Of a stretch of 64,000 nucleotides of DNA, positions 23,946 to 37,848 are shown one piece after another. The notes under the pieces are model-generated. The model was given only the letters and a program-made list of their open reading frames with translations, was not told the DNA's origin and did no database searches. The stretch spans positions 1 through 64,000 of the forward strand of contig JAJYSP010000014.1 of NCBI GenBank assembly GCA_021793515.1, read 5' to 3'. Each line of letters starts with the position of its first letter. Positions within the stretch are counted from its first letter, which is position 1. The translations under genes were made by a program, and so were the position numbers. Source of the stretch: Actinomycetes bacterium (lineage in GTDB: Bacteria; Actinomycetota; Acidimicrobiia; Acidimicrobiales; RAAP-2).

Positions 23946-24089
23946 TTATGGTCGTGGTCGGACTCAGCACTTGGATATCTGGGGACGGCCTCTGTTCATG
24001 GTCCCGTGCGATCAGGGGAAGGCTGGCTGTGGACACGAGGGAACTTCGCCCTTCGCTCGAGACGGAGCAAGGAAAGGAGTGGTGCCGGC

Positions 24090-24269
24090 CTGCTCGATGT
24101 TCGTAGTCACGTCCTTCGCCACGCGGCAGCGTTGGCCACGCTCGCCGCACAACCGGACGTGCTGACGGTGTCTCGCGTGTTGGGACTCCAGTCCGTCAAC
24201 GCCGACCCTCAGTCGCTACGGGAACATCATGGTCAGGACGTCGTTCGCGTTATTGCGGCGGTCGAAGGA
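24090..24269 (+). pseudogene. Tyrosine recombinase (integrase) C-terminal remnant
   Basis: A 60-codon stretch inside a longer meaningless open frame reads as the end of a phage-type integrase. It has LDVRSHVLRHAAALATLA (the H-x-L-R-H box), VLTVSRVLGLQSV (the L-G-H region with His lost) and LREHHGQDVV, where the catalytic Tyr would be expected. The N-terminal two-thirds and the tyrosine are missing. It lies directly beside the tRNA-end-like sequence at 24312-24360, the normal place for an island integrase. Assignment rests on the pattern alone. Confidence 0.45.
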
Positions 24270-24311
24270 ATGGGCTGTTGGGGGAGAAGCACGAAGGGAC
24301 GAGGGAAACCA

Positions 24312-24360
24312 TTGTCCAAACGGTCGAGGGATCTTTGTCCAAACGGTTCAGTTGGTGGGG
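24312..24360 (+). repeat. Attachment-site-like sequence (similar to the 3' flank of tRNA-Ile)
   Basis: Two direct copies of TTGTCCAAACGGT begin at 24312 and 24335 and are followed by TTGGTGGGG at 24352. Next to the intact tRNA-Ile the same order occurs: TTGTCCGAACG at 37733, TTGTCCGAAT at 37756 (again 23 bases apart) and TTGGTGGGG, the tRNA 3' end, at 37771. The shared spacing and motif order suggest a copied att site. Confidence 0.45.
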
Positions 24361-24841
24361 AAGTTGTAGGGCGACGCATTCGATGACCAGCAACTCCCGC
24401 TGAAGCGCCACTCACCGTGATGATGCATTGAGGCACCGTTGGTGGTTGCGTTGTCGCTTCGGGCGGTGAGAGCGTGGGGTGTCCAAGAAAAGGAACCCTG
24501 CTAACTAGCGAACCTTTCGACCAGGCGCGACACATCAGAACTTGGTGAGGTGGCCCGCCACGCGCAGTGTGGCACCCTCTCCATCGGCCTATCTCGCGGT
24601 TCCTCCGGGGGCAGCCCAGCGTCGCGTCGATGATTGTCGCAGCGTTCGTCAATCGGGGCTAGCCTTTCGAGTCCGGGATGCCCGACACGCTGGTGCTGGG
24701 AAGTCGGCGGTAGCGCACCCGACACCGACCGGGCAGATCGACCGCGAGCGTGCTCACCGGCGCTGATCCTCTCACGCTGGCCCGCAGGGCCGATTCGACA
24801 ACTCAGTGTCGGATAGCCCCCAGCCAATCCCCCAACAGTGG
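24361..24841. other. Intergenic stretch, probably decayed coding DNA
   Basis: No supported gene. Several short open frames overlap on both strands with no ribosome-binding site and no recognisable family. It lies downstream of the small gene at 24842-25000. Confidence 0.4.
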
Positions 24842-25000
24842 TCAGTCTCCGCCGGCCGACTTGGTCAAATTGCGGAATACGTCGGGGTCGGGGCTCTGCT
24901 CAGTATTGCGCACGCGTCGCATCTCTTCGAACGCGCGGCTCCACATCGACGGCTCACGAGCGGTCTGCTGCTCCTCAATTGTGGCGTGGTGTGCGTGCAT
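24842..25000 (-). CDS. Small hypothetical protein (52 aa)
   Basis: A 52-residue hydrophilic protein starting MHAHHATIEEQQ and ending NLTKSAGGD, with a central Trp-Ser-Arg-Ala-Phe-Glu-Glu helix. An excellent ribosome-binding site, AAGGAGA, lies 6 bases before the ATG. The start lies 12 bases after the stop of the upstream membrane-protein gene, so the two form an operon. I know no family for it. The strong initiation signal and operon position are the case for its being real. Confidence 0.6.
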   Translation of the reverse strand: MHAHHATIEEQQTAREPSMWSRAFEEMRRVRNTEQSPDPDVFRNLTKSAGGD

Positions 25001-25012
25001 GGACTCTCCTTC

Positions 25013-25483
25013 TCAGATCATACCGGTGACGAGGAGCAGCACTGACGCAGCCAGGGTGCTGGCTGCGCCCACCACCCACTGCGCCTTGTGACGAAGACGC
25101 GCATCGTTGCGTTCAGCTGCCGCTACGTCGGCACGCAGTAAAACGTCCTCGGTAAGTTGAGCATCGTCTGACGCGAGTATCTCCGCCAAGAGCTCTTGAG
25201 GCTGTCGCGGTTCACGTCCTGGTCGCCGGAGTATCAGGGCCACTACGGCGAGGACCACTGAGAGTCCGGCTCCAGCAACGCCCAGTCGGCCGAGGTTCTT
25301 TGTCGTTAGGTGTGGAACCACACCGGCCAGAGTCGTTACCACCCCACCGAGTCCGGCGAGCACCCCCGCGGAGGCGTTGAGCGAGTCGCCGCGCGTGATC
25401 TGGTCGAGCAGAAGCGTGTCAAAGACCTTGGTTGCGATGCGATGCGCCTCACGACCGTCGGCTCCGGTTCTCGCGTCGTCCAT
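25013..25483 (-). CDS. Hypothetical membrane protein with a coiled middle region
   Basis: A 156-residue protein starting at ATG 25483 (MDDARTGADGREAH). It has two adjacent membrane spans (about residues 35-55 and 65-85, ASAGVLAGLGGVVTTLAGVV and LGVAGAGLSVVLAVVALIL), a charged helical cytoplasmic stretch (PQELLAEILASDD through RNDARLRHK) and a third span at the C-terminus. The pattern resembles small two-plus-one membrane proteins found near effector or defence genes, but that is only an impression. It is followed by the 52-residue gene. Confidence 0.55.
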   Translation of the reverse strand: MDDARTGADGREAHRIATKVFDTLLLDQITRGDSLNASAGVLAGLGGVVTTLAGVVPHLTTKNLGRLGVAGAGLSVVLAVVALILRRPGREPRQPQELLAEILASDDAQLTEDVLLRADVAAAERNDARLRHKAQWVVGAASTLAASVLLLVTGMI

Positions 25484-25564
25484 GGCCCAACACCGTAGGA
25501 CGCGGGTGTTACGTGGTGGCGACACCATCGGTTATGAGGAGCCATGGATCAACTTCCGCGCGAG

Positions 25565-25837
25565 GGTCCCGCGCGAGTGAACGCGCTCCCGTCAGACCCG
25601 AACACGCTCGCAGTGATGCTCGCCGCCGGAGAGATCGCTCCGGACGGGACCGTGTCCTCCACTACACAGAGCCGCCCCGTCGGCGCGAGCTCCTCGGGTA
25701 GTGGGCGCAGCTCGTTTCAGCAGGTCCAAGTCATCGCTCGGCTCGACGCTCGACACGTAGCGGCCGGTCTGGCGGGGACGATTTTGATCGGCACCGTGTC
25801 CACACCGCTCGGGGCTGCGGGTACGTCGCTCAGCGTG
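25565..25837 (+). pseudogene. Broken partial copy of the ECF-associated gene at 27496-28623
   Basis: This segment matches 28175-28479 almost base for base at its start: CGCGCGAGTGAACGCGCT, then RVNALPSDPNTLA, MLAAGEIAPDGTVSST and the GASxSGSG stretch. It then loses about eleven codons and ends abruptly after LGAAGTSLSV. Cysteines of the parent (SCPVG, GCSP) are changed to Arg. The rest of the parent gene is not present around it, so it is a non-functional internal fragment of a duplicated copy. Confidence 0.75.
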
Positions 25838-25985
25838 ATCGACTACCCGCCGAAGAGGGCGTGGCACCGGCCCACCCGTGAAGGAGCGTGTAGGTGCCCA
25901 CCCACACAATGTCGACAACCAGGAGTGCGGCGGCCGTTATGAAGCTGTAGACAGCGCCGTGTCGTACCACCACCGCACCAGCCAA
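25830..25985 (-). CDS. Possible membrane-protein fragment (51 aa)
   Basis: An open frame from a TTG at 25985 encodes one strongly hydrophobic segment (VYSFITAAALLVVDIVWVGTY) followed by TLLHGWAGATPSS. It looks like the C-terminal span of a membrane protein, but no ribosome-binding site or upstream part is found. It adjoins the duplicated fragment, so it may be another decayed piece. Low confidence. Confidence 0.25.
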   Translation of the reverse strand: MAGAVVVRHGAVYSFITAAALLVVDIVWVGTYTLLHGWAGATPSSAGSRSR

Positions 25986-26144
25986 CTCCGTTGGATCCTC
26001 TCACCTAGCACAGCGGGCACCGTGCTTGTGCCCTCTAGCGCGGCAATGAGCCGCATTCGCGAACTGAGCCTCGTGACTCACACACTGCGACGGCCCTGAA
26101 AGCGAACTCGTGCGCTCGCAGCCGGCGCGGGTACGTTGGAAAGA

Positions 26145-26774
26145 ATGGACAACGCAAACGACACGCCGGATAGCTCTCCAGCGTTCGGTGCTCAAGATGG
26201 CATCGGTGTGGTCGTCAAGTCCAATGTTGTCCGCCGACTGAGGCGCTCACTACTTGTTGGCGCGGCGGCTCTTGTAGTGGTGCTGTTCGTTGCGGCCAGC
26301 CGATACCAGCCACTCTCGATCTCGCCCGGGATGGCGACGTGGAAAGACCGCGGCTCCTCGACCGAGGTCACCGTGGGTCTCAGTACCACTCTGTCGAACA
26401 GCGGCCCCTTCGGTGTGGACATCGCAGCACTTCACCCCACGGTGTACGCCGACCCACCACTCGTGGTCACCTCACTTCGGCCGTGTTTCGAGTACTTCAA
26501 AGGCCAGCACTGGTGTCCCCAGGACAAGAACGGGTACTTCACTGGTGACAAGTTCCATCCTTTCGTCATCACTGGTGGCAACACGATCCCCGTCGTTTGG
26601 CGGTACTCCTTCAGCTGCCGGCGCTACGACACGGGCGCGTCCTACTTGTCGGGACCCGTGGAAGTGCGAGTGCTGTACCGGTTCGGCTTCTTCACTCACG
26701 AAGTCCTGTTGGTATTGTCCGGAAGCGAAGCAACTCCGCCCAGTTCAACGGGGCCCTGCGCACCAACCGGGTAG
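26145..26774 (+). CDS. Membrane-anchored hypothetical protein
   Basis: A 209-residue protein with a short cytoplasmic N-terminus, one membrane anchor (about residues 33-52, SLLVGAAALVVVLFVAAS) and an extracellular beta-rich domain. That domain holds four cysteines (CFEYFKGQHWC, SCRRY, GPC) that could form two disulfides. The layout (LSNSGPFGVDIAALHPTVY ... VEVRVLYRFGFFTHEVLLVL) looks immunoglobulin-like, as in many secreted actinobacterial proteins. Start is ATG 26145 or TTG 26136. No family recognised. Confidence 0.6.
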   Translation: MDNANDTPDSSPAFGAQDGIGVVVKSNVVRRLRRSLLVGAAALVVVLFVAASRYQPLSISPGMATWKDRGSSTEVTVGLSTTLSNSGPFGVDIAALHPTVYADPPLVVTSLRPCFEYFKGQHWCPQDKNGYFTGDKFHPFVITGGNTIPVVWRYSFSCRRYDTGASYLSGPVEVRVLYRFGFFTHEVLLVLSGSEATPPSSTGPCAPTG

Positions 26775-26983
26775 CACTCGAGGTTGACGAAACGCAATGT
26801 GTTGCGTGCGGCTCAGTGCGCGTTGCCCCGGCCGGGCGCGCGCGACGTGCCGCAGCGGCGTCAGAGCCACGAAGCTCAGGGTAAGAACATTGGCAATCGA
26901 AAGGCGCAGTTCAAGAACCCCTGAACCGAGACGGACCCCCTGTTGCTGTAATGACGACAGGCGCGCGTGACGTATAGAGAGTG

Positions 26984-27499
26984 ATGGTGACAATCAGGCC
27001 AGTGGGCAACGACGAGCGATTCGAGGAGTTCTTCCGTACGCACTACGGGCGCGTTCGGCGCTACGTCGCGCGGCGCACGTCCGCTGGTCTGGTCGATGAC
27101 GTGACGAGTGCAGCCTTCACCGTGGCCTGGCGCAAGTTCGACACCGTTGACGAGCCCTCGATCGCCTGGGTAATCCGCATTGCCAGCCTCGAGTTGGCGA
27201 ACGTCCGTCGTAAGGAGCTGCGGCGACGGGGCCGCGAGCGTTCGTGGTTAGAGCGCCCCGCCGCGCCGGTGGCGGCGACTGACCACGAGATGCTCGCCGC
27301 CGCACTCGATGACCTCTCTGACACCGACCGCGAGATCGTGCGTCTAGTCCACTGGGACGAGCTGGCACGCGGCGAGATCGCCGAGGTCCTCGGCATCAGT
27401 GTGGGTGCGGTCAACGTCCGCTACCACCGTGCCCTGAGCCGGCTGGAGGCTCGACTTCACGCTCACGAGACAACCACAACACAGGAGGTTCCCCGATGA
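26984..27499 (+). CDS. ECF-type RNA polymerase sigma factor
   Basis: A 171-residue sigma factor with region 2 (FEEFFRTHYGRVRRYVARR, VDDVTSAAFTVAWRKFDTV) and region 4 (ALDDLSDTDREIVRLVHWDELARGEIAEVLGISVGAVNVRYHRALSRL). It resembles actinobacterial ECF factors paired with a membrane protein encoded directly downstream. Its TGA overlaps the next start (ATGA, 27496-27499). A GTG one codon earlier is possible. It probably directs its own operon; no conserved promoter was identified in the 206-base gap upstream. Confidence 0.9.
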   Translation: MVTIRPVGNDERFEEFFRTHYGRVRRYVARRTSAGLVDDVTSAAFTVAWRKFDTVDEPSIAWVIRIASLELANVRRKELRRRGRERSWLERPAAPVAATDHEMLAAALDDLSDTDREIVRLVHWDELARGEIAEVLGISVGAVNVRYHRALSRLEARLHAHETTTTQEVPR

Positions 27500-28623
27500 C
27501 GCATGACCTGGACCGCATGATCCGCGAGATCGACCCCGCGCGGTCACTCGACACTGGTGACGTCGACGCCGCCTGGCGCGACCTGACGAGTCGCGTCGCC
27601 ATTGCGGCGCCCACACGACGCCGGCGCACTCGTCCGCTCATCGCCGTCGGGTCCATTGGCACACTGGTGGCCGCGGGGGTCCTGTTGGTGAGCACTCTCA
27701 CGACTAGTCCGCTGTCGGCTGCGGCGGCGACACTGTCGCGCGCCGCCCACCTGGACGCGGCAGCCGCAGCTTTGCCCGCGCTCTCGCCGGGCCAGTCCTA
27801 TCACCAGCTCGAGTCCGTCGCGGCGACCTGCCAGTTCGCGTCGCCCACGATGCCCGCGGGGTCGGCGCCGATCACCTACCACTCAACGGGCACGGTCGAA
27901 AGTTGGACGAGTGCGAGCGGCGTGACGCACGTCATCATCACCCCGTCGCCTGTCGCCCTGAACGGTGGGTTCGCCTCGGCGACCGACCTGGCTCGCTGGG
28001 AGTCACTGGGTCGACCCTTCATTCCTTGTGCGCTGGGCGGTAGCGACAACACGCTCAACGCCAATCCGGCGAACGCGAACCCGGGCGCGTACGGAGGCTT
28101 CTCGACCTCCGTGGTGGGCTGGTCGGGCTTCGGATTCAACCTGGGCTCGAGTGTGTCCTCGATCACTCAGGACGTCGCGCGAGTGAACGCGCTGCCGTCT
28201 GACCCGAACACGCTCGCGACGATGCTTGCCGCCGGAGAGATCGCCCCGGACGGGACCGTGTCTTCCACTCCACAGAGCTGCCCCGTCGGCGCGAGTGCCT
28301 CGGGCAGTGGTTGCAGCCCGGTTCAGCAGGTGCAAGTCATCGCCCAACTCCTGCAGCTGCCCGACGCCTCGGCCAAGCTCGGCTCGGCGCTCTACCAGGT
28401 AGCGGCCGGTCTGCCGGGGACGAGTTTGATCGGTACCGTGACCACACCGCTCGGGGCTACGGGTACGGCGCTCAGCGTGCCCCTCTCCTCGACCGAGACC
28501 CTGGAACTAGTCATCGATCCAATGACTGGCGCGTTGCTGGAGGCTTCAGCCTTCAGTGGCAGCACTTCGTTGGCCTCGATCAACTACGGCGCGATCACCG
28601 TCGGAGGAAACCGGCCGTCGTAG
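27496..28623 (+). CDS. ECF-associated membrane-anchored protein (CU044_5270-like)
   Basis: A 375-residue protein with a cytoplasmic N-terminus (MTHDLDRMIREIDPARSL, about 50 residues), one membrane span (about 52-70) and a long extracellular region of alternating helical and beta segments. The start of the cytoplasmic part resembles CU044_5270-type proteins that accompany SigJ/SigE-like ECF factors in actinobacteria and may hold or release the sigma factor. No zinc-binding anti-sigma motif (H-x3-C-x2-C) is present. Translationally coupled to the sigma gene, which argues for a regulatory partnership. A broken partial copy lies at 25565-25837. Confidence 0.7.
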   Translation: MTHDLDRMIREIDPARSLDTGDVDAAWRDLTSRVAIAAPTRRRRTRPLIAVGSIGTLVAAGVLLVSTLTTSPLSAAAATLSRAAHLDAAAAALPALSPGQSYHQLESVAATCQFASPTMPAGSAPITYHSTGTVESWTSASGVTHVIITPSPVALNGGFASATDLARWESLGRPFIPCALGGSDNTLNANPANANPGAYGGFSTSVVGWSGFGFNLGSSVSSITQDVARVNALPSDPNTLATMLAAGEIAPDGTVSSTPQSCPVGASASGSGCSPVQQVQVIAQLLQLPDASAKLGSALYQVAAGLPGTSLIGTVTTPLGATGTALSVPLSSTETLELVIDPMTGALLEASAFSGSTSLASINYGAITVGGNRPS

Positions 28624-28676
28624 TCGAGATCGAGTGCCGGGATGCACTGTGGCTGGAAAGGGCCACCCAGATACCC

Positions 28677-29438
28677 TTAAAGGCTCTGGGCGGTCACGGG
28701 TCCGTACACAACCGGGATGCCCACCGGCCACCACGGCGGGGCAACCTCTTTGTCTACGGCTGCAATCTCCTCATTGACGAGGCGGGTGGCGACAGCGACG
28801 TGGTCGTCCAGGGTGTTAGGTGTCCGAATGATGAACGGCTCGGCCTCGCGAGCGAACCCGTTCTCTTCCATGAGACTGACGAGCGGCTCGAGATACAACC
28901 CTATGCCAGTGACAGCGCCGACAGCACCTACGGCGAGACGATGGTCGAGAGGATGAATGGCGTTGACGAGTGGTGTGACCTTGTCGCCGTCGCAGATCAA
29001 CTCGACGTGTAGAAGGCGAGGACCCTGCTCGTTGTGCTCGGCGAGGAGAATGCCAAACGTGAGGTCGGGGACTGCGGCACCAGTGAGTTGGCGAGTGGCC
29101 TTGAGAATCGAAGGAACAACTGGTGCCAAGAAACCAGAGAACTGAACCACTGCTTCCTCCAGTGAGGTAGCGGCATCTAGTGCGCTCGAGAGCTCGGCGA
29201 GGCAGTCGATGTTGTCGTACGAGAGGACACCAGTCAGCGCTCCCAGTCTGGTGCCTCGTCGGATGATCTTGCCGAGGTGCTTGCTCGTGTTGCCGCGGAG
29301 ATCGACGTTGCAGGCATCGGTAGCCAAGGCAACGTGCTGATGGCTGATCACTCCCACGGCGACACTCACCGGGACAGTCTGGCGCAGGAATCTCCAGCGC
29401 CGGGGCATGCCTACGGAGGCGTCGAGGACGAGTCGCAT
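28677..29438 (-). CDS. Proteasome-beta-like Ntn-hydrolase-fold protein (Ser at position 1)
   Basis: A 253-residue protein of no named family. Residues 25-66 follow the N-terminal pattern of proteasome beta subunits. Ser25, Asp41 (in ALATDACN) and Lys57 (in KHLGKII) have exactly the spacing of Thr1, Asp17 and Lys33, and the next strand RLGALTGVLSYDNID matches the following beta hairpin and helix. About 24 residues precede Ser25, like a short propeptide. If real, nucleophile Thr1 is replaced by Ser. The C-terminal part (LLHVELICDGDKVTPLVNAIHP) fits further strands. Start is ATG 29438 or 29408. Neighbour to a RecB-like nuclease gene on the same strand. The fold is inferred, not shown. Confidence 0.5.
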   Translation of the reverse strand: MRLVLDASVGMPRRWRFLRQTVPVSVAVGVISHQHVALATDACNVDLRGNTSKHLGKIIRRGTRLGALTGVLSYDNIDCLAELSSALDAATSLEEAVVQFSGFLAPVVPSILKATRQLTGAAVPDLTFGILLAEHNEQGPRLLHVELICDGDKVTPLVNAIHPLDHRLAVGAVGAVTGIGLYLEPLVSLMEENGFAREAEPFIIRTPNTLDDHVAVATRLVNEEIAAVDKEVAPPWWPVGIPVVYGPVTAQSL

Positions 29439-29530
29439 GACGACAGTATCGGCACGCTGGTCCAGATCCTTGAGGCGCTCAGCCGAGACACTCAGCTACC
29501 ACTCGAACGGCGGTGCGAGCGTCTCGCTTT

Positions 29531-30496
29531 TCACAGCAGCGCGCGAAGGATCACCTCGAAGTCGCGGCGAGCATCATCCGCACTCACGGGCCGGCCAGAC
29601 ATCAGCGAGAGGAGATCGGCCAGTGGCCAGACGACTTGCACTCCGTGTCGCGAGTAGTAGATCCCGACCTCGTCCACGGCATACGAGCGGTCGAGGTCGA
29701 GTAGCGCGTAGCCGATGATCTGCCAGAGGTCGACGCGCTCGATCTGGGAGGCGGTGACGGTCTTGACGTCGATCAACCGGTGCCCCGCGATCACGTCGGC
29801 GTCCGCACCGCCGACGAGATGACTGCCGGCGAATGTCGGGTTTGGCACGATTGGAGATGCGAGTTGGGCGCCCTGGGTCATCGTCAGATGACGAGCCAGG
29901 GCCGCGAGATCAGCGCGGGCCGACTGGCTCGCAAGCGTGAGAACGGTGTCGAGATCGGTCAAAGGACCGAGGTCCTCGAGGGGTGATCGTCCCGCCCCAC
30001 CCATTCGAAAGTACTCCTCGTAGAGGGCGAGCGCGAAGCACAGAGCGCCCAACTGGTGCTCGAACTCGGGATCGCCACGTAGTGCGGGCTCCTGATGGCG
30101 CAGCTCGAGCAGGCGATCTTCCAACTCTTCGTAGGCGCGCGAAACGTTGGAGGCCGCACCCCATGAGTTGCCAAGCCTCTCCGCTCCGATTCGCGCGACT
30201 CGATGATCACCGTCGCTCGGCGCGAAGAAGAAGCGCACTCGATAGTCGAAGGCGACCCCGATGGTGGACCAGCGATACGCCCTGCGGTCTTCGAGGTCAG
30301 GGGTTACGACGGGCTCGCCGAGTCGCCAGGCGGCGCGCTTTGGAAGATCTTCGGACGCCAGGTAGCGCCCGAGCACTATCCCTGGATCATCGGTTGGAGA
30401 GAGGGAAGCACGCGCGGCGCTGACGTTGGTGAAGCGCTCAGCGAAAAAACGGCTGACGGGGCTCGACGTGTCCTTCAGGTGGCTCACGAGCGACAT
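29531..30496 (-). CDS. RecB-family PD-(D/E)XK nuclease-like protein
   Basis: A 321-residue protein. Near residues 220-260 it carries the three motifs of RecB/Cas4-type nucleases in order: GGADADVI (metal-binding Asp), LIDVKT (the D-x-K core) and DLWQIIGYALLD (the Q-x3-Y motif). The first 200 residues are helical with no known domain. RecB-type nucleases act in recombination, CRISPR adaptation and phage defence. Start at ATG 30496 rather than 30526. It is divergent from the zinc-ribbon gene (66-base gap) and followed 92 bases later by the proteasome-like gene. Confidence 0.6.
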   Translation of the reverse strand: MSLVSHLKDTSSPVSRFFAERFTNVSAARASLSPTDDPGIVLGRYLASEDLPKRAAWRLGEPVVTPDLEDRRAYRWSTIGVAFDYRVRFFFAPSDGDHRVARIGAERLGNSWGAASNVSRAYEELEDRLLELRHQEPALRGDPEFEHQLGALCFALALYEEYFRMGGAGRSPLEDLGPLTDLDTVLTLASQSARADLAALARHLTMTQGAQLASPIVPNPTFAGSHLVGGADADVIAGHRLIDVKTVTASQIERVDLWQIIGYALLDLDRSYAVDEVGIYYSRHGVQVVWPLADLLSLMSGRPVSADDARRDFEVILRALL

Positions 30497-30562
30497 GGTC
30501 GAAACATACCTCGCTCGGCGCGGCACGGTCAGATGTCACCGGCGCGCCCTATTGTCAGGAGT

Positions 30563-31318
30563 ATGGCTCCGCTGTTTGGCCGCGGTCATGATCCCGAGAC
30601 CTTTCGGACCCCTCCGCCACTCAAACGATCCGAGGTAGAGGACCGCCGGGTCGCCGCCTGCCCCTATTGCGGCGTTGTACTGAAGAAGGTGCCGGGTGCC
30701 GCCACGACATGCCCATCGTGCCGTGAGACGATGTTCGTGCGGACGAATCAGCGCAGCCGCGTGCGCATGGTCGTGACCTGGGCTGAAGCCGACGAGATCG
30801 ACGACGTGAACGAGGCGATCACCACGGGCAATCTCGACGCCTATGACGCCCGCGTCACTCGTTGTCGCGACGACCTGCGCAGTACCGGCAAGTTCGGTCC
30901 GTCGCCCGCGTACGCGGACGTACGGTGGCGGATGCTCAACGAGGATGTCGCGGGCGCCCTCGCGACGAAGGATCCCGTGGCGCTCTTGTTCGCGCATCGC
31001 AGGATGCTCGAGGTACTGCGCCGGCGTCGCGCGACGGACCAAGCGCTCGAGCTCGCCCTCACGGTGTTCTATCTCGAGCAGTGCGGCGAGCCGGTGCGCG
31101 GCTATGACATCGATCGCGGGGGTGCGGACACAGTCACGTGGCAGCCGCTCGCCACACCCTCGCAGGGTTCACTGACGGCGTGGGTGGGGCGCGAGTGCGA
31201 GGGACTCGGGGTCAGCGTCGAAGAAGCGGCCCGCCGCTTCGATGCGAGGGCCGACGGACTGCGGCGAGGCTTCGGATTGCCTCTGAGCTGGGCACGAATC
31301 CGGCCCGAGTGCGTGTGA
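30563..31318 (+). CDS. Zinc-ribbon protein of unknown function
   Basis: A 251-residue soluble protein. Near residue 30 it has a two-knuckle zinc ribbon, CPYCG ... CPSC, within a basic N-terminal segment. The remainder is predicted helical (VRWRMLNEDVAGALATKD, ALLFAHRRMLEVLRRRRATDQALELALTVFYLEQ) and may be repeat-like. Zinc ribbons of this type usually bind nucleic acid or partner proteins. AGGAG lies just before the ATG at 30563. A longer in-frame extension from 30203 overlaps the divergent nuclease gene and is rejected. The 176-base gap after it contains only an imperfect CACCTCG/CGAGGTG hairpin. Confidence 0.6.
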   Translation: MAPLFGRGHDPETFRTPPPLKRSEVEDRRVAACPYCGVVLKKVPGAATTCPSCRETMFVRTNQRSRVRMVVTWAEADEIDDVNEAITTGNLDAYDARVTRCRDDLRSTGKFGPSPAYADVRWRMLNEDVAGALATKDPVALLFAHRRMLEVLRRRRATDQALELALTVFYLEQCGEPVRGYDIDRGGADTVTWQPLATPSQGSLTAWVGRECEGLGVSVEEAARRFDARADGLRRGFGLPLSWARIRPECV

Positions 31319-31494
31319 ACGCTGCGAGCCAGCGAGGTGGGCCCCGTCTCTAAACGCCTGTCGAATGTGGTGGGACACCTCGCGGGCAACTTCGCCTCGA
31401 GGTGAGATGACAGAGAGGATCGATTCCAGGCGTATCGGGGGTCTCGAGGACGTAAGAGGGCGATGTCCTTCTCACTCAGAAGGCTGACTCGGTG

Positions 31495-31809
31495 TTACGC
31501 AGCGACCTGCCGGCCCCGCTTAGCGTGTAGCTCGAGTGCGAGCTCGTAGTCAGAGTGCGGGATGATCCCTGACAGGTGGCCGGTATGGACCGTCTGCCAC
31601 ACGAGCTCAGTAGACACCGCGTCCGCTAGTTCGCTGAGCCAGAGGGATGGATCACGGGTGGGCTCAAAGACGGGCAACTCCACATAGAGCTGAACAGCGA
31701 GCTCGGGAGTGATGTATCCGTAGTGACGCCACGCGGCGATGTCACTGACCTTATGGGGTCCGGGCGGCACCACCGACCGGTCGCTGACTGGTGTGCGACT
31801 GGAGTTCAT
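31495..31809 (-). CDS. Hypothetical protein (104 aa)
   Basis: A 104-residue protein with no recognised domain. It contains a segment that could be a helix-turn-helix-like or adaptor region (VSDIAAWRHYGYITPELAVQLYVELP) and ends in a basic stretch (LHAKRGRQVAA). Start is ATG 31809; an in-frame GTG/ATG two codons earlier is possible. It lies in the accessory region beside a frameshifted gene on the same strand. Confidence 0.45.
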   Translation of the reverse strand: MNSSRTPVSDRSVVPPGPHKVSDIAAWRHYGYITPELAVQLYVELPVFEPTRDPSLWLSELADAVSTELVWQTVHTGHLSGIIPHSDYELALELHAKRGRQVAA

Positions 31810-31832
31810 TGTCACGTGACGGTGCGTGACAC

Positions 31833-32182
31833 CTACTCGTTGTCAAGGAGCCGCTCTACGAACCATGCGGGACCGAAGACGTCAGGGGGCATCCCGATGG
31901 AGGGGATGTGCTGCGCGTCGCCGCTACGAGCGAGATCCGCCAGTCCAGAACCGGCGAGTGTTGCCCGCATAGGAAGCAGAACGGCAGTAAGCCGTTCCAG
32001 TTGAGCACCGGCAAGAGCCATTCGGCTGGTTGACCACACGCCTCGACTCGCCCGTCGGGAGGAACATGGCAGCCCACGTTCTTGAAACTTGGGCAGCAGC
32101 ACCGTACCGGTCGTTCGTTGTCCCAAAACACGGCGTAAGAGTACTTCGCCGTGGTGCCGTCGACGTGGTCTTGCCGTGGTGG
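31833..32182 (-). pseudogene. Frameshifted cysteine-rich protein gene
   Basis: Two overlapping frames together read like one protein. The first gives YAVFWDNERPVRCC, NVGCHVPPDGRVEACGQPAEWLL and PFCFLCGQH (several Cys/His pairs, suggesting zinc binding). The second continues with GSGLADLARSGDAQHIPSIG and ends FGPAWFVERLLDNE. A single frameshift near 31960-31990 would join them. No start codon with a ribosome-binding site exists before the first part (a TAG stands at 32183-32185). I therefore call it a decayed gene of unknown function. Confidence 0.4.
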
Positions 32183-32338
32183 CTATACATGGTTGAGGCT
32201 TGCTTCGCTTGGGGGAGGGGTGCCTTTAGGGCGGACAGGCGCCCAACAAATCGACTGCCCTGACCTCAGTCTTTGTCACGGCAAGCGCAGTCCGTGGTGT
32301 ATCTCGGGGACCGGGGATGAAGTTAACTCGCCACAGCT

Positions 32339-32830
32339 CTACCTCGAGCGAGCCTCATCGCGGAGTAGTTGGCGCAGACGAAGTGAACTCTCTTGAAGTC
32401 GGTCGACGGCAATGTTCATGCCGTTGAACGCGTCGATCCTCGCCGGCCCGATTTCGGCTCTGTCAATCGCCCCGCAACTTGAAAGGAGTTCGCTCCACAG
32501 GCCGTTCGTTGCCTCCATCGCGGTTTCCACCCTCTCGGGGAGGAAGAGTGAGACCATGGCGTCGACGTCCGGATTTTGGATGTCCGAGTGGTCCTCTCGC
32601 ACGATGAACTCGGTGCCGAGTCGGTAGCGAGCGACCAGAGCTTCCGCTGTCTCCAGCTGGCGGGACCTCTGGCGCTCGAGAAGAAGACAGGCCTCACGAC
32701 GGCTCGCATAGTCACGGTCCTCACGGGCGTCAGTGGCACGTTGGTGGCGATCACGCGCCGCACCTGCGTAGGTGAGGCCGCCGCCCGCCAGGGCGGAACC
32801 GGCACCGATGAGCACGTCGATCCAGGACAT
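32339..32830 (-). CDS. Hypothetical protein with N-terminal membrane span and coiled coil
   Basis: A 163-residue protein from ATG 32830 (MSWIDVLIGAGSAL). A glycine-rich N-terminal span (about residues 3-22) is followed by a highly charged helix (RDRHQRATDAREDRD ... LLERQRSRQLETAEALVARY), likely a coiled coil, and more helix to the end. Such single-span coiled proteins are common in phage and defence-associated accessory regions but have no defined role. The 148-base gap downstream shows nothing. An in-frame extension to 32911 is rejected for lack of a start signal. Confidence 0.5.
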   Translation of the reverse strand: MSWIDVLIGAGSALAGGGLTYAGAARDRHQRATDAREDRDYASRREACLLLERQRSRQLETAEALVARYRLGTEFIVREDHSDIQNPDVDAMVSLFLPERVETAMEATNGLWSELLSSCGAIDRAEIGPARIDAFNGMNIAVDRLQESSLRLRQLLRDEARSR

Positions 32831-32969
32831 TGCTATCGATTCTGCCCGATAGCTGTGACGTTTGCGGGGAGTTCGGTGGGTGGTGGGCGGTTCCCACCAG
32901 GAGATATTCACCGAGCCGGCCTAAAGTGGCTCGACTGCGGCCGAGAGGTGTCACGAGCACTGTAGAGGC

Positions 32970-33866
32970 GTGCCCCAGAGAGATTCCCGGTCGACCGCAG
33001 CGATCATCGAGACCTACAACCCCGCCATCGGGCGTCACCACTTGGTGAGCCCGGCGGAGTGGCGAGCGGTCGCGAACGTAGTGCGAGAGGCGGTCGCACC
33101 CTTCAGCCACCTTCGCGGCGAGCAGATTCGCGACTACCTGCGCTCGATGACGAAGCTGGCGGCATTCGTCCGGCGGCTCGAGGGCGAGATGAGCATTGCG
33201 GCGGTGCTCGCCCCGGCAAGCATACGAGGGTTCTTGCGTAGCCAGCCGGCGGGCGTACGCGACGAAGAGCCGTACTTGTGGCGCCTGGCCCGAGCCCACG
33301 GCACGGTGCCGGTGGACGAGTCGGTGCACCACCAGGTGGGCCGGCACGACCTCAAGGCGCCCTATACGACCGAGGAGATCGAGTCTCTCCTGCTGGCCGC
33401 TCACAGTCAGCCCACCGAACTGCGCCAGCTCAACGTGCTGGCCATCGTCGTCCTCGGCGCAGGTGCCGGGCTGGTGCGCGAGAGCTCGCGCGACGTGTGC
33501 GCGAGCGACGTCCACCGGCACGAGGATGGTGTGTTCGTGCGAGCCCGTGGTCGGTGCGCCAAGGTCCTCCCCGCATTCGAGGCCGAGCTCGAGGAGTTGG
33601 TACGGCGACGTCCGAAGGGTCGGCTGCTCGGCACCGCTCAGTCCCGCTTCATCACCGCCCAGGCCCACCGGTGGCTCGACGACCGCCGTGGGGTCCCGCG
33701 GCTCTCGGTGGACCGGCTGCGCGCGAGCTACCTCATCGACCTCATGCGTCGGGGTCACACGCTGGTTGAGGTGATGGCCTGGTCGGGGCTGAAGACGACC
33801 GACACGCTGTGGCGCCTGGCTTCGCACTTGCCCGTGCCATCGACTTGTCCGAGAGACGACGGGTGA
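32970..33866 (+). CDS. Tyrosine-recombinase-fold protein, catalytic residues incomplete
   Basis: A 298-residue protein whose C-terminal half follows a tyrosine recombinase. It shows LAIVVLGAGAGLVRESSRDV in place of the G-L-R-x-x-E box, then RLSVDRLRASYLIDLMRRG in place of H-x-L-R-H and VEVMAWSGLKTTDTLWRLASHL in place of L-G-H ... Y. The arginines remain, but the first box-II His is Asp and no tyrosine occupies the nucleophile position. Its N-terminal part has a helical SAM-like region. It may therefore bind DNA without cutting it. The gene starts GTG at 32970 and its TGA overlaps the transposase start (GTGA), so the two are made together. Confidence 0.6.
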   Translation: MPQRDSRSTAAIIETYNPAIGRHHLVSPAEWRAVANVVREAVAPFSHLRGEQIRDYLRSMTKLAAFVRRLEGEMSIAAVLAPASIRGFLRSQPAGVRDEEPYLWRLARAHGTVPVDESVHHQVGRHDLKAPYTTEEIESLLLAAHSQPTELRQLNVLAIVVLGAGAGLVRESSRDVCASDVHRHEDGVFVRARGRCAKVLPAFEAELEELVRRRPKGRLLGTAQSRFITAQAHRWLDDRRGVPRLSVDRLRASYLIDLMRRGHTLVEVMAWSGLKTTDTLWRLASHLPVPSTCPRDDG

Positions 33867-35506
33867 GCGCGCTTAGTCTCACCGAGAGCCTGCGCGAGGC
33901 CGAGCGCCTGGTGGACTCGGCACTCGTCGACGGCGTCGCGGTGCACGAATACCTCGAAAGGTTGCTCGCCGAGAGTTGCCCGCGTCGCGGTCGCCCGCGG
34001 GGACTATCGGTGCGCACCCTGCTCGTCGCGATCCAACTCGGCGCCTTCGCCGGTCGCTTCTTCCTCACGGAACTAACCGATCTGCTGGGTCCCCTGGGTC
34101 CGGCCACGCGGGCCCGGCTCGGACTGAAGCGCCGCGGCGAGCCCGTGACGTACCGACAGATCTGCTACCTGGTGACGCGTATTGACGACGTGCTGCGCGC
34201 GAGCTTCCGCTACGAGGACGGTCGACTGGTCGAGGGACTGGCCACGTTCGACGGGGTCTTCAACGCGCTGGCAACGTCCGGGGCCCACGCCGGGGCCGCG
34301 GTGGCGTCCTCGATCGCCATCGACGGTTCGGATATTCCCACGTGGGGCACCTCCTCGCCACGCGAAGAACTCGCGTGGCGAGAGGACGAGGAGGGACGAC
34401 ACCACATCGTGCGCGACGAGGACGGTGGCGCGCACTGGGAGAAGGCGCGCGTCGTCACCGACACCGACGCCGCCTGGCGGGGCAGTCGCGAGGTCGAGGG
34501 CAAGCCCGCGCACTTCGGCTACAGCCTGACCGTCGCGATCTCCGCGCGCGAGGAGAACGGTCCCGACGTTCCGCGCGCGGCGCTGGCGGCACGACTGCGT
34601 CCGGTAACGGTGCAGGACAAGATGATGGGCCTGGCCTGCGCAGGAGAGGTCGCCGAGCGCCGTGGGCAGCTCGGAGACGTCTTGGTCGACCGGGGCTACA
34701 CCAACTCGTTGGACGGGCGGGACTTCCTGCTGCCGATCCGGGCGATGGGCGGTGAACCGGCCTTCGACCTGACGGCCTACCAGGTGGGGCCCCAGGGAAC
34801 GCTGCGCGGGGCGATCATCATCGTCGGACGTCCCTACTCACCCTCGACGCCGAGGTCGCTGCACCGGATCGATCGTCCGACCGGCGCCCAGAACGGAACG
34901 TACATGCCCGCTCACCGAGCGGTGCGCGAGTACCAGGAGAAGATCGCGGCGCGCGAGATCTACGCGCTCGTGCCCCATGGCTCAGTGCGGCCGAATCTGA
35001 CCCAGGTCTTCCAGTGTCCGGGTGCGGCGGGCAAGTTGGACTGCCCACTGCGACCCGCGCGACGGGGGCTGCGCGAGGGTGCCCTGCCCGTCCTCAACGC
35101 TCCGGCGCATCCAGCGGCCGACAGCGTCTGTGCGACGGCCTTCACGACCTTCAGCCTGGAGGAACTGCCACTCTTCCAGCGTCACGTCCACGGCTCACGG
35201 GCCTGGTTCGGGAGCTATGCACGGCGCCAGACCAGCGTCGAGACCTACTTCGCGAACATCAAGGACGCCGCCGGTGAGAACTTCGCGCGCGGACGCATCC
35301 GCGTGATGGGCATCGTCAAGATCGGCCTCTTCGTCGCGGCGACGCTCGCGAGCGCCAACCGGCGCCTGGCCCTCTCCTTTGACCCCGAGCGCATCGCGAA
35401 GCGTCGCGCGCAGCGCCGACCGGGACGTCCGACACGGCATCGGCGTCTCACCTACCGCCAGGTGGTCGAAGACGCGACGGCGTCCAAGGTCGTGATTCGA
35501 ACTTGA
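33863..35506 (+). CDS. DDE transposase
   Basis: A 547-residue transposase from GTG 33863. The likely catalytic acidic residues are Asp in SIAIDGSDIPTWG (about residue 155), Asp in DVLVDRGYTN (about 275) and Glu in TSVETYFANIKD (about 475), the order of IS4/IS1182-like RNase H-fold enzymes. Basic N- and C-termini would contact DNA (RAQRRPGRPTRHRRLTYRQ near the end). Coding is intact and GC-rich like the host. Translational coupling to the upstream integrase-fold protein is unusual. A perfect hairpin follows 32 bases after the stop. Confidence 0.75.
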   Translation: MSALSLTESLREAERLVDSALVDGVAVHEYLERLLAESCPRRGRPRGLSVRTLLVAIQLGAFAGRFFLTELTDLLGPLGPATRARLGLKRRGEPVTYRQICYLVTRIDDVLRASFRYEDGRLVEGLATFDGVFNALATSGAHAGAAVASSIAIDGSDIPTWGTSSPREELAWREDEEGRHHIVRDEDGGAHWEKARVVTDTDAAWRGSREVEGKPAHFGYSLTVAISAREENGPDVPRAALAARLRPVTVQDKMMGLACAGEVAERRGQLGDVLVDRGYTNSLDGRDFLLPIRAMGGEPAFDLTAYQVGPQGTLRGAIIIVGRPYSPSTPRSLHRIDRPTGAQNGTYMPAHRAVREYQEKIAAREIYALVPHGSVRPNLTQVFQCPGAAGKLDCPLRPARRGLREGALPVLNAPAHPAADSVCATAFTTFSLEELPLFQRHVHGSRAWFGSYARRQTSVETYFANIKDAAGENFARGRIRVMGIVKIGLFVAATLASANRRLALSFDPERIAKRRAQRRPGRPTRHRRLTYRQVVEDATASKVVIRT

Positions 35507-35538
35507 CGGTTAGCTGAGCTCGCCGCCGGGTGCCGGAT

Positions 35539-35564
35539 GACCCCCGCACGTGCGTGCGGGGGTC
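35539..35564 (+). terminator. Perfect 12-bp palindromic hairpin after the transposase
   Basis: GACCCCCGCACG and CGTGCGGGGGTC pair perfectly around two bases, 33 bases after the transposase stop. There is no T-run; it may end transcription or be part of the element end. Confidence 0.6.
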
Positions 35565-35640
35565 TCGTCGTGTTCGCAACGCGGTCTCAGTAGCGACTCG
35601 GCTCGATCGACAGTGTGAGAGAGGACAAGAGAGTGAAAGC

Positions 35641-35671
35641 CCCGGTTCGAACGGCTCGAATCGGGACTTTT
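35641..35671 (+). terminator. Rho-independent terminator-like hairpin
   Basis: CCCGGTTCGA pairs with TCGAATCGGG (one G-T pair) around ACGGC, followed by ACTTTT. It is the second stem-loop in the 374-base gap between the transposase and the BNR-repeat gene; the rest of that gap shows nothing coding. Confidence 0.6.
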
Positions 35672-35880
35672 GTGAACTGCTGGGGGCCACTTTCGTGACT
35701 TCCCCTTGGTGGGGGATTTTGACAAAGGCTGAGTTCCTGATCAACGGCAGTGTCAAGTACCACCCAGGCCGGCTCCTCACCAGCGCGAACTGATCTCGTC
35801 ACCACGAAAATGGCGCGTCATCACCAGCGAATTGACAAACGCCTTTCAGTTCGTCGTGCAGGATTTTCGACGATGCAACT

Positions 35881-37233
35881 TCAGCGCGAGACTGTGCCCG
35901 GGATGGCGACGCGATACCAGGTGCGTCCACCGTCTCGCGTGATCATTACGAGGTAGCCGTTACCGGTGAACCAACTCATCCAACCGAACGACGGCGTCGT
36001 GAAGTTCAGCGTCGCCGGAGCGCCCGAGTCGTAGCGCTGCGATCGTCGAACCACCGACGATGAGAATGCGTCGTCGCTTAGTCCCGTCCATGACGCACCG
36101 GCATCGTTCGTGGCGAGCAATTGGTCGCGATAGGCGAGTCGCCAGACGGTTGGGCTCACGATGTCTACCGCCCATGGATGCGCTGGGCCAGGCGGGTAGA
36201 CCGGCGAAAAGGAGTGGCCACCGTCGTGGGTGACGTAGACGAGACTGGCCGTGCCATCAGCGAAGGCCACGGCGCCAGCCTTACCCGACAGCACGACCGG
36301 ACCGGTGAATTCGGCGCCGCCGGGTAGAACCGGGGCGGGCTGTGTGAGTGTGACGGCCGACCAGGTGCGTCCGGCGTCAGCACTGCGATAGAGGCTGGCG
36401 TGACTCGCGTTGCACCAGAACTTCGCCCAGACCACGTTGTCCGCGGTCATTGAGAATTTCTTGTCACAGGTATAGGGCAGACCGCCGTCACCCACGTAGG
36501 ATCCCCCGCCTGCGAAGCCCCCGGTGTTGTCAAAGGTCTTGGTCCACGATCGGCCGCCGTCGTCGGTCACATACAGCGCGAGCGGTGCCGCATTCCCCGC
36601 ACCGAGGGAGGAAGCACAGATCCCGTCGCTGGCGGAAGAAAAACTTGGCGTGCACGTGGCTGAGGGAACCATACCGGCGGTCGACCAGGTGCGTCCGCCA
36701 TTGTCGGTTGTGAGGAGTCGAGCGCTCGGTTGATTGGCACTTGTTGTCGAGTCCACTACCACCCACGCGCGCCTCGCTGACAAGGCGATGAAGGCGCCTA
36801 ACGGACGTTGGCCAACGGTGGTGCCGTAGCCCGACGGTGTGGCGTTGCGCCACGTGCGACCGCCATTATTGCTCCACTCGACGACCTGGGTGTTTCTAGT
36901 CAGCGACGTCACGTTCATCGTGAACACCCACGTCGACTCTCCACCGACCGGCCACACGGACTGGACCGATTGACCCCCGGGGACAAAGGGTGTCACCGCA
37001 TTGTGGCCGCCAGAGACTCCGGACCTCGAGAATGGCTGGGACTGAGCCGTCGTCGACTTCGGTGGACTCTGCTTGCCGCCACCCACGATCGCCAGTGTCA
37101 CCGTGACGACGGCCAGCAGAATAAGACCAATGGTCCATCGACGTCGCCGAGCCCGTTTTCGAGCCTCTTTGATCAGAAGCTCGTCGTCTCGAGGTGACAC
37201 GGGGGCTCGACTCGGTGTCTCGACTGTTGCCAT
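35881..37233 (-). CDS. Membrane-anchored BNR-repeat beta-propeller protein
   Basis: A 450-residue protein with a basic cytoplasmic N-terminus, one membrane span (about residues 33-50) and an extracellular sialidase/Ycf48-like beta-propeller. At least seven Asp-box-like repeats are visible: SNNGGRTWR, TDNGGRTWS, TDDGGRSWT, SADAGRTWS, THDGGHSFS, TNDAGASWT and TRDGGRTWY. Propellers of this type bind ligands or scaffold complexes; sialidase catalytic residues were not identified. GGAGG stands 6 bases before the ATG. It is divergent from a GntR regulator across a perfect palindrome, so it is probably under its control. Confidence 0.8.
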   Translation of the reverse strand: MATVETPSRAPVSPRDDELLIKEARKRARRRRWTIGLILLAVVTVTLAIVGGGKQSPPKSTTAQSQPFSRSGVSGGHNAVTPFVPGGQSVQSVWPVGGESTWVFTMNVTSLTRNTQVVEWSNNGGRTWRNATPSGYGTTVGQRPLGAFIALSARRAWVVVDSTTSANQPSARLLTTDNGGRTWSTAGMVPSATCTPSFSSASDGICASSLGAGNAAPLALYVTDDGGRSWTKTFDNTGGFAGGGSYVGDGGLPYTCDKKFSMTADNVVWAKFWCNASHASLYRSADAGRTWSAVTLTQPAPVLPGGAEFTGPVVLSGKAGAVAFADGTASLVYVTHDGGHSFSPVYPPGPAHPWAVDIVSPTVWRLAYRDQLLATNDAGASWTGLSDDAFSSSVVRRSQRYDSGAPATLNFTTPSFGWMSWFTGNGYLVMITRDGGRTWYRVAIPGTVSR

Positions 37234-37263
37234 TAGGTCCTCCGCGACAGTGAACCGTAGTTG

Positions 37264-37282
37264 GTACTATGTCGGATAGTAC
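37264..37282. promoter_or_regulatory. Palindromic operator between BNR gene and GntR regulator
   Basis: GTACTAT and ATAGTAC form a perfect 7-bp inverted repeat with GTCGG between. The site ends one base before the chosen GntR start and lies 30 bases upstream of the divergent BNR gene, ideal for autoregulation and co-regulation. It overlaps the earlier in-frame ATG at 37269, which argues against that start. Confidence 0.7.
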
Positions 37283-37283
37283 T

Positions 37284-37637
37284 ATGAGTTTTCGTCGCGT
37301 CAATAAGGTTGAGTCCATGGCGGTCTACCAACAGGTGGCCGCCGAAATTCGTCGAGCCATCGCCGAAGGCGAAATCTCGGAGGGCGAGCGCCTGCCACCT
37401 GCGGTGGACCTAGCCGCAATTCTCGAGGTGAACAAGAACACGGTCATTCGCGCACTCCATGTTCTGCGCGACGAGGGGATGCTCGACTTCACCCGGGGAC
37501 GCGGGATTCGGGTCGTGGGAACACCCCAGCGTGGCGCAGTCCTCTCTCAAATCGACGAACTCCTCGACTTCGCCCGACGTCAGGGAATTCGACGAGACGA
37601 TGTCGTTGAACTCATACTGGCTCGCCCCAACACGTGA
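37284..37637 (+). CDS. GntR-family regulator (YtrA-like, short)
   Basis: A 117-residue regulator with a GntR winged helix (VYQQVAAEIRRAIAEGEISEGERLPPAVDLAAILEVNKNTVIRALHVLRDEGML) and only a short helical C-terminus, as in the YtrA subfamily that usually controls neighbouring transporter genes. ATG 37284 leaves the usual 12 residues before the first helix; with the palindrome ending at 37282 the message may be leaderless. Other possible starts are 37269 and 37317 (AAGG upstream). Confidence 0.85.
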   Translation: MSFRRVNKVESMAVYQQVAAEIRRAIAEGEISEGERLPPAVDLAAILEVNKNTVIRALHVLRDEGMLDFTRGRGIRVVGTPQRGAVLSQIDELLDFARRQGIRRDDVVELILARPNT

Positions 37638-37743
37638 TCGCGAGAGAGCAACGTTGGCGCGTGTTTGAGTGCGACAGTTCCAACGTAGAAGATGGACGCG
37701 GTGCTCGTCGGACGTCGGATTCATCCAAACGTTTGTCCGAACG

Positions 37744-37765
37744 ATTCGGACCTATTTGTCCGAAT
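37744..37765 (-). terminator. Hairpin downstream of tRNA-Ile
   Basis: ATTCGGAC and GTCCGAAT pair perfectly around a 6-base loop, 7 bases past the tRNA 3' end on the minus strand. It may end the tRNA transcript, but it also overlaps the repeated TTGTCC motifs discussed as integrase sites. Confidence 0.55.
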
Positions 37766-37771
37766 ACCTCT

Positions 37772-37848
37772 TGGTGGGGCTAGTAAGAATCGAACTTACG
37801 ACCTCGTCATTATCAGTGACGCGCTCTAACCGACTGAGCTATAGCCCC
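37772..37848 (-). tRNA. tRNA-Ile (anticodon GAT)
   Basis: Cloverleaf with acceptor GGGGCTA/TAGCCCC, D-arm GCTC-AGTCGGTTA-GAGC, anticodon arm TCA-CTGATAA-TGA with anticodon GAT, T-arm GTAAG-TTCGATT-CTTAC, discriminator A and encoded CCA. Its 3' side faces the accessory region, the usual integration target geometry. Confidence 0.96.

Follow-up and report, generated by a model that had tools for sequence, protein, structure and literature searches.

A degenerate tyrosine-recombinase-fold protein, a candidate target selector, coupled to the DDE transposase of actinobacterial transposons at tRNA and tmRNA gene ends

The Tn7-like transposon Tn6022 employs TnsF, an inactivated tyrosine recombinase, as selector for its target comM (Faure et al. 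2023, PMC10293859). As outlined there, this combination of an inactivated tyrosine-recombinase domain with a DDE transposition system and a choice of insertion site is the nearest precedent for the gene pair described here, in which the gene of a recombinase-fold protein (gene 1) overlaps that of a DDE transposase. The pair was found in a stretch of 64,000 nucleotides (the window) of an Actinomycetes bacterium of the order Acidimicrobiales (GCA_021793515.1, contig JAJYSP010000014.1; Table 1). However, Tn6022 has TnsA/B/C and TniQ, and its TnsF carries N-terminal zinc fingers and is directed to comM, whereas the transposase described here stands alone and its elements lie at tRNA and tmRNA ends. 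Furthermore, the gene 1 sequence of the window, the one protein inspected in this respect, contains no CxxC pair as expected for a zinc finger of the TnsF type.

A TnsF-like protein is also present in the transposon Tsy, which according to the same source is moved by active tyrosine recombinases, whereas in the present case a DDE transposase accompanies a recombinase fold without the catalytic set. Elements of the IS1202 type are located at a distance of 5 bp from XerC sites, are accompanied by 5-bp duplications and may contact the host XerC at dif (PMC10132070). As far as this source describes the IS1202 family and its ISAjo2 group, the likeness lies in transposition by a transposase only, in fixed orientation and with a 5-bp duplication beside a XerC-bound site, but these elements consist of a single gene, have terminal inverted repeats with TGT/ACA tips and target dif, whereas the family considered here has a recombinase-fold protein of its own. 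Its elements were found at tRNA and tmRNA ends rather than at dif or pdif beside a XerC site, and their tips are GGGG or GAGG instead of TGT/ACA. The tRNA-targeting Tn7-like elements and CRISPR-associated transposons (CASTs) likewise are DDE transposons with tRNA genes for attachment, and they are described to reach these genes via TnsD/TniQ or a guide RNA (PMC10293859, PMC11406308). The insertion of CyCAST is placed 30-33 nt downstream of the tRNA in PMC11406308, whereas the insertions described here abut or cover the CCA end. The literature searched, the scope of which excluded subscription papers, preprints and ISfinder, contained neither a description of this family nor one of a single DDE transposase that is accompanied at tRNA ends by a recombinase-fold partner of its own. 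An earlier reading of the window made from the sequence alone (the sequence-only reading) knew of no standard insertion sequence (IS) family with such a pairing.

We consider it likely that the pair represents the transposition module of a family of DDE transposons whose insertion sites are the 3' (CCA) ends of tRNA and tmRNA genes, with gene 1 encoding a disabled integrase that serves as target selector. With slightly less confidence we favour the wider view of a new transposon family in which a tRNA-recognising phage-type integrase, having lost its chemistry, came to select the target for a single DDE transposase. The tRNA islands in question would then be formed by DDE transposition, the family would be a two-gene counterpart, outside Tn7, of the targeting by TnsD and TnsF, and retargeting would have taken place among at least 14 tRNA isotypes and tmRNA.

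Table 1. Features of the gene pair and of the element array at tRNA-Ile in the window.
Feature	Position	Strand	Remarks
Aminotransferase class III gene	17786-19129	-	ancestral neighbour of tRNA-Ile
Right end of further element E1	24311-24351	+	repeats ATTGTCCAAA (24311) and TTTGTCCAAA (24334)
TTGGT copy and GGGGAAGT	24352-24364	+	putative (weak) left end of main element; 8 bp of inverted repeat left
Main element E2	24357-35705	+	about 11.3 kb; gene pair at tRNA-proximal end, cargo to the left; left limit putative
Divergent frame, 190 aa	32339-32911	-	within block conserved with the element of genome G367
Gene 1	32970-33866	+	open frame, 298 aa; tyrosine-recombinase-fold protein, proposed target selector
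GTGA overlap	33863-33866	+	gene 1 stop TGA (33864-33866) over in-frame transposase GTG (33863)
DDE transposase gene	33863-35506	+	547 aa; D154/D276/E460 present
Right-end direct repeats	35666-35698	+	ACTTTTGTGA (35666) and ACTTTCGTGA (35689), 23 bp apart
Right tip of main element	35699-35705	+	last base 35705; similar end at tRNA-Ile in L075, L255/L282, L268/L281, L272/L273
TTGGT, copy of tRNA-Ile 3' end (5-bp duplication)	35706-35710	+	full match TTGGTGGGG extends to 35714
Second element E3 (cargo only), located between E2 and tRNA-Ile	35711-37770	.	ends GGGGGATTTTGACAAAG and, twice, TTTGTCCGAA (37732, 37755)
tRNA-Ile (GAT)	37772-37848	-	target of the whole array

The stop codon of gene 1 overlaps the GTG of an intact DDE transposase gene, as the sequence-only reading had stated, and the search for the same pair in other actinobacteria that it had suggested as a check led, with those of the window's genome counted, to 67 non-redundant pairs. 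An exactly four-base overlap (NTGA) is present in 54 of these, four of them with CTG as the would-be start. The genome of the window contains three pairs in all, each with a GTGA overlap, the other two being 23-29% identical to the window pair. Since the four-base overlap recurs in this manner and two more divergent GTGA pairs reside in the same genome, the pairing is not due to chance. In a search with a transposase profile, itself built from paired copies, gene 1 was located directly upstream in 29 of the 31 matches starting within the first 15 profile positions, the exceptions being L238 (genome G061) and L241 (G499). The corresponding figure in the final locus table, 58 of 59 full-length transposases, is biased since this table includes loci fetched via gene 1. 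Judged from these sequences, the pairing of gene 1 and transposase is real and forms the core of a transposon family. In L096, L098, L229, L232, L233 and L235 the transposase gene is preceded by at least two gene 1-like frames in series. An apparent gene 1-transposase fusion in L023 was rejected as an artefact of a mechanically called long frame.

Gene 1 is patchily distributed, occurring in 20 of 198 genomes of the order and 31 of 395 of the class, as well as, according to a narrower profile, in 13 of 396 genomes of the phylum (own genome counted in each case). A scan of a bacterial and archaeal genome collection with two short peptide patterns, which detects close relatives only, revealed 48 loci on contigs of metagenome-assembled genomes labelled Actinomycetes, Acidimicrobiaceae, Acidimicrobiales, Solirubrobacterales, Streptosporangiaceae and similar. 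Among the data scanned the family was found in actinobacteria only. Distant copies, few among the plasmid records, reside on plasmids of Streptomyces and Rhodococcus, and on four annotated plasmid stretches of these genera both proteins are called "hypothetical protein". The phage records contained no match to the transposase.

A library search with gene 1 gave no significant Pfam or NCBIfam match. According to a search of PDB sequences, a profile built from 21 gene 1 sequences matches the archaeal XerA (4a8e, 4.3e-7), and a second, narrower profile matches XerA weakly (0.044). The AlphaFold2 (AF2) model of gene 1, based on an alignment of 26 sequences (predicted local distance difference test, pLDDT, 82.5; predicted template modelling score, pTM, 0.62), matches XerA 5hxy with a VIA Z of 14.8 over 237 aligned residues at a root-mean-square deviation (rmsd) of 15.3. 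Its C-terminal half alone matches the HP1 integrase (Z 13.7, rmsd 3.8, 151 residues). Further structural matches of the model comprise the P2, Tn1549, Cre, XerH and lambda integrases and the recombinase-fold phage regulators MrpR/YopR and SroF (Z 11.4-12.4). Profile match and predicted structure thus bear out the recombinase fold that had been proposed from the sequence: gene 1 encodes a protein of the tyrosine recombinase fold with a predicted core-binding and a predicted catalytic domain.

The catalytic positions were surveyed in 62 gene 1 proteins, including that of the window and one row (L098) which looks misassigned by the script and is still counted. Boxes I and II were positioned from the XerA alignment, while box III and the nucleophilic Tyr were placed by the usual spacing. 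The Arg-His-Arg-His/Trp-Tyr set of tyrosine recombinase enzymes is incomplete in the window protein, which has Val in place of the box I Arg, Asp in place of the box II His, the box II Arg, Leu in place of the box III His and Leu at the nucleophile position. It is likewise incomplete in all 62 proteins, none of which has the box II His or the box III His (or Trp). Of these proteins, 61 retain the box II Arg and seven the box I Arg, and a Tyr occupies the nucleophile position in ten; in L082 and L083 a Tyr is found one residue away. The sequence-only reading was therefore correct regarding the missing box II His and Tyr, but not in assuming that the Arg residues were kept, since only that of box II is present. 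The family is degenerate as a whole, but the loss of the Tyr is not uniform.

The residues D154, D276 and E460 of the transposase are invariant (21 of 21 and 20 of 20 aligned transposase sequences). The protein weakly matches DDE_Tnp_1_6 and the IS1182 family model NF033551 of NCBIfam (23.6 bits, E 2.1e-5), its score lying far below the curated cut-off of 270 bits for IS1182 membership. Apart from this weak similarity, the loci found with the IS1182 profile differ in lacking gene 1 and in being located mostly away from tRNAs. A Foldseek search with the AF2 model of the transposase (pLDDT 73.8) gave no match under E 0.001, the best being the P element (E 0.035), with RNase H and retroviral integrases listed weakly. 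Hence, a DDE core is supported by the D-D-E residues and the weak family matches, not by the fold of the model.

A comparison of flanks revealed shared chromosomal neighbours beside unrelated pairs (by eye, dnaX, smpB and FhaA-type operons), because a tRNA or tmRNA gene detected there by ARAGORN is the target. The final table, collapsed at 97% identity, contains 85 transposase loci, of which six have too little flank and 79 are assessable; L281 and L282, fetched through the tRNA-Ile flank, were left out, and a "fragment" in L288 was counted as none due to its wrong place. An intact tRNA or tmRNA gene was identified 71-277 bp past the transposase stop at 50 of the 79 loci (median 211.5 bp; 160-240 bp in 42 of the 50), and in all 50 it is convergent with the transposase gene. 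The targets comprise Leu (12), Ser (7), Arg (6), tmRNA (6) and Met (4); ten other isotypes are represented by one or two loci each, amounting to 14 isotypes and tmRNA. A tRNA 3' fragment was present at the transposase end of six further loci, two of them cut by the contig end. The other two pairs of the window's genome lie 210 bp from tRNA-Ser(GGA) and 277 bp from tRNA-Arg(TCT). The target may differ between relatives, as in L115 (Met) and L120 (Arg) at a transposase identity of 0.79 and in L130 (Thr) and L141 (Ser) at 0.76.

For mechanical frames of 250 aa or more in 13 stretches, family members included, the corresponding figure was 5 of 238. Among IS1182-profile loci of the same class a convergent tRNA was nearby in 1 of 24 measured, although this control is small and its loci are not independent (26 fetched, 15 over the curated cut-off, nine from one genome, one without downstream flank), and two of them (L164, L178) also score weakly with the transposase profile of the family. 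Gene 1 was absent at the 26 loci. In L166 two convergent tRNAs follow an ordinary IS1182 transposase at distances of 97 and 198 bp.

Just ahead of the tRNA two direct repeats with at least eight of ten bases alike were detected in 44 of 53 right ends (11% in shuffles), spaced by 22-23 bp in 41 of the 44. In one clade, both ends (similar to GAGGTCTTCACGTTTG and CAAACGTGAAGACCTC) were recognised at 18 of the 34 gene 1-bearing loci scanned (L100-L159), 2.84-3.31 kb apart, which leaves room for the two genes only; no Pfam hit to TnsA/B/C or TniQ was obtained among the 17 window frames scanned. The ends are visible by comparison only, as an inverted-repeat search within the window alone returned noise, and the search for left ends by local alignment was successful for few elements. 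An exact 5-bp duplication was found for 4 of 15 testable delimited elements compared to 2 of 210 mismatched pairs. Clean 5-bp duplications are present, for instance, in L150 and L115, which are small complete elements of about 3.1 kb. A clean case is the element of genome G367, a sister of the window element with a clean left end at L280:16056, which is flanked by two GTGGT copies (GGGGATTCACGAAAGT ... ACTTTCGTGACTTCCCC) and measures about 9.6 kb. Its right GTGGT copy is the tRNA-Ile end itself; the duplication thus spans the CCA end and leaves the tRNA whole. At a contig end in L117 (3500-3736) a right end, CAACG and a left end follow in direct succession, corresponding to a tandem copy or a circular form.

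Sister genomes show the tRNA-Ile site of the window either empty or filled. The aminotransferase gene lies about 75 bp from tRNA-Ile in the empty sites L283 and L284, whereas the window has an insertion of 18.6 kb between the two, in which the ends of three elements are present. Exactly three copies of the tRNA-Ile end TTGGTGGGG are present in the 64 kb, always on the same strand (24352, 35706, 37771; 0.33 on average in shuffles, 1 of 100 with three), and these copies separate E1, which ends at 24351, from E2 and E2 from E3. The left end of E1 was not found, and that of E2 was placed tentatively because only 8 bp of inverted repeat are kept. In L282 (G882) the right part of E2 adjoins tRNA-Ile directly without E3, 95.8% identical over 2121 bp, and L075 and L281 are further filled tRNA-Ile sites. 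According to these comparisons the window pair belongs to tRNA-Ile, with E3 lying between them. After allowing for the nested E3, the window shows an NTGA-coupled pair, a convergent tRNA, a doubled right-end repeat and a 5-bp duplication. In L273 (G881) tRNA-Ile carries a tandem of two cargo-only elements, which have ends of the same type and look like non-autonomous relatives.

In the scheme that we infer for the role of gene 1, the proteins bound to each repeat and the order of events, the DDE transposase would bind the terminal inverted repeats, one end carrying a doubled repeat two helical turns apart. Insertion with a 5-bp stagger across the CCA end would keep the tRNA intact, with the transposase-gene end always facing it. 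Gene 1 would be a disabled phage-type integrase whose old recognition of a tRNA attachment site (attB) now directs the transposase, while translational coupling may keep the two proteins in step. As the target would be regenerated, arrays could form when later elements entered next to the tRNA and thereby separated it from earlier ones. Fixed orientation, near-constant offset and intact target point to a dedicated target selector, and gene 1 appears to be the natural candidate since it has an integrase fold without the chemistry, is coupled to the transposase and belongs to elements at classic integrase targets.

Several observations weigh against this reading. Of the 15 delimited elements no more than four show an exact duplication, and the left end of the window element is eroded. 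Arg, Arg and Tyr occur together in four gene 1 proteins (L076, L110, L109, L235). At 18 of the 85 loci no gene 1 was assigned by the script, most of these transposases being truncated, and L238 (608 aa) and L241 (496 aa) appear to be near-complete transposases, located at tRNAs without a recognised gene 1. No tRNA is present within 400 bp at 23 of the 79 assessable loci. Nesting or a short fragment is the probable cause in five of them (the window, L088, L090, the first pair of L097, L124), and the remainder comprises four plasmid copies, seven truncated copies and seven without explanation. None of the four plasmid copies with a complete pair (L286-L289, Rhodococcus and Streptomyces) has an ARAGORN tRNA gene beside it, and at 18 loci where no tRNA had been called, other structured RNAs were likewise absent according to an Rfam search. 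Finally, elements sharing a target do not have more similar gene 1 proteins than their transposase identity predicts (permutation p 0.55; 35 elements, 26 same-target pairs), with a weak trend at best among closer pairs (9 same-target, 38 different). The target-choice role suggested by the sequence-only reading receives strong indirect support from the location at tRNA and tmRNA 3' ends and the fixed orientation, but no clear signal from this comparison.

The negative outcome of that comparison and the two transposases without gene 1 at tRNAs would be explained if the target were picked by the transposase or by some host factor acting at tRNA genes, while gene 1 bound the element ends, the other role considered in the sequence-only reading, and assisted synapsis. 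The two right-end direct repeats would be a plausible site for a recombinase-like dimer, and IS1202 elements reach dif without an encoded selector, as described in PMC10132070. Nevertheless, we regard this possibility as rather unlikely, since one orientation and a near-constant offset over 14 isotypes and tmRNA is the pattern of dedicated selectors in Tn7-like elements and the IS1182-profile loci, which lack gene 1, mostly lie elsewhere than at tRNAs. Regarding the solo copies, a loss of gene 1 may have followed their insertion.

The retention of Arg-Arg-Tyr in four proteins and of a Tyr at, or in two more cases next to, the nucleophile position might suggest that gene 1 is still active as a recombinase, at least residually, and serves to resolve cointegrates or to excise the element. 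This seems very doubtful, as the box II and III His are absent from all 62 proteins, the box I Arg from 55 and the Tyr from 52, the window protein being among those that lack them. We give equally little credence to gene 1 as a repressor of the transposase in the manner of MrpR/YopR and SroF: these regulators are among its structural matches and gene 1 is located upstream and coupled, but the specificity for tRNA ends would be left without explanation and the conserved repeats are positioned at the far end past the transposase gene, not at a promoter. That the islands were built by ordinary integrases of phages or integrative and conjugative elements (ICEs), with the pair as passenger DNA, is hardly credible in spite of the normal-looking recombinase gene at tRNA-Ile in G879 and the recombinase and tRNA relics in the window, given two-ended elements of about 3.1 kb that have inverted repeats and fit two genes only, the exact duplications and the nearly uniform distance to the tRNA.

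The cargo of E2 includes an ECF (extracytoplasmic function) sigma factor gene and its neighbour (26981-28623). One of the two tandem cargo-only elements of L273 has a sigma/anti-sigma pair 93% identical to 26936-28603 of the window. Another cargo gene (29531-30526), to which a stretch of the G367 element is 70% identical, was matched by PADLOC to the PD-(D/E)XK protein of a DRT (defence-associated reverse transcriptase) system (2.2e-11). E3 contains a BNR-repeat gene and a GntR-type regulator gene, and its ends resemble those of E1 and of tRNA-Ile elements in L264 and L267. A small cargo-only element in L273 (16467-18112) encodes, as judged by eye, an Xre-type regulator and a nucleotidyltransferase-like protein, possibly a toxin-antitoxin pair. 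A degenerate copy of the 3' part of tRNA-Ile at 21758-21800 probably stems from an earlier integration of the phage or ICE type at this tRNA, and just left of the right end of E1 (23960-24300) the remnant of an ordinary tyrosine recombinase, comprising its C-terminus, was noticed by eye. The normal-looking recombinase frame beside tRNA-Ile in G879 (L257) has 378 aa.

As a rule, genomic islands located at the 3' ends of tRNA genes are attributed to phage-type integrases. The family described here places DDE transposons at such integrase-type sites, beside a relative of integrases that seems to be no longer catalytic. Should gene 1 be the selector, the pair would constitute a minimal, two-protein system for site-specific insertion that spares the tRNA, and changes of target could be traced between relatives such as L115 and L120 or L130 and L141. 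The members retaining Arg-Arg-Tyr make the transition from a recombinase to a target selector testable.

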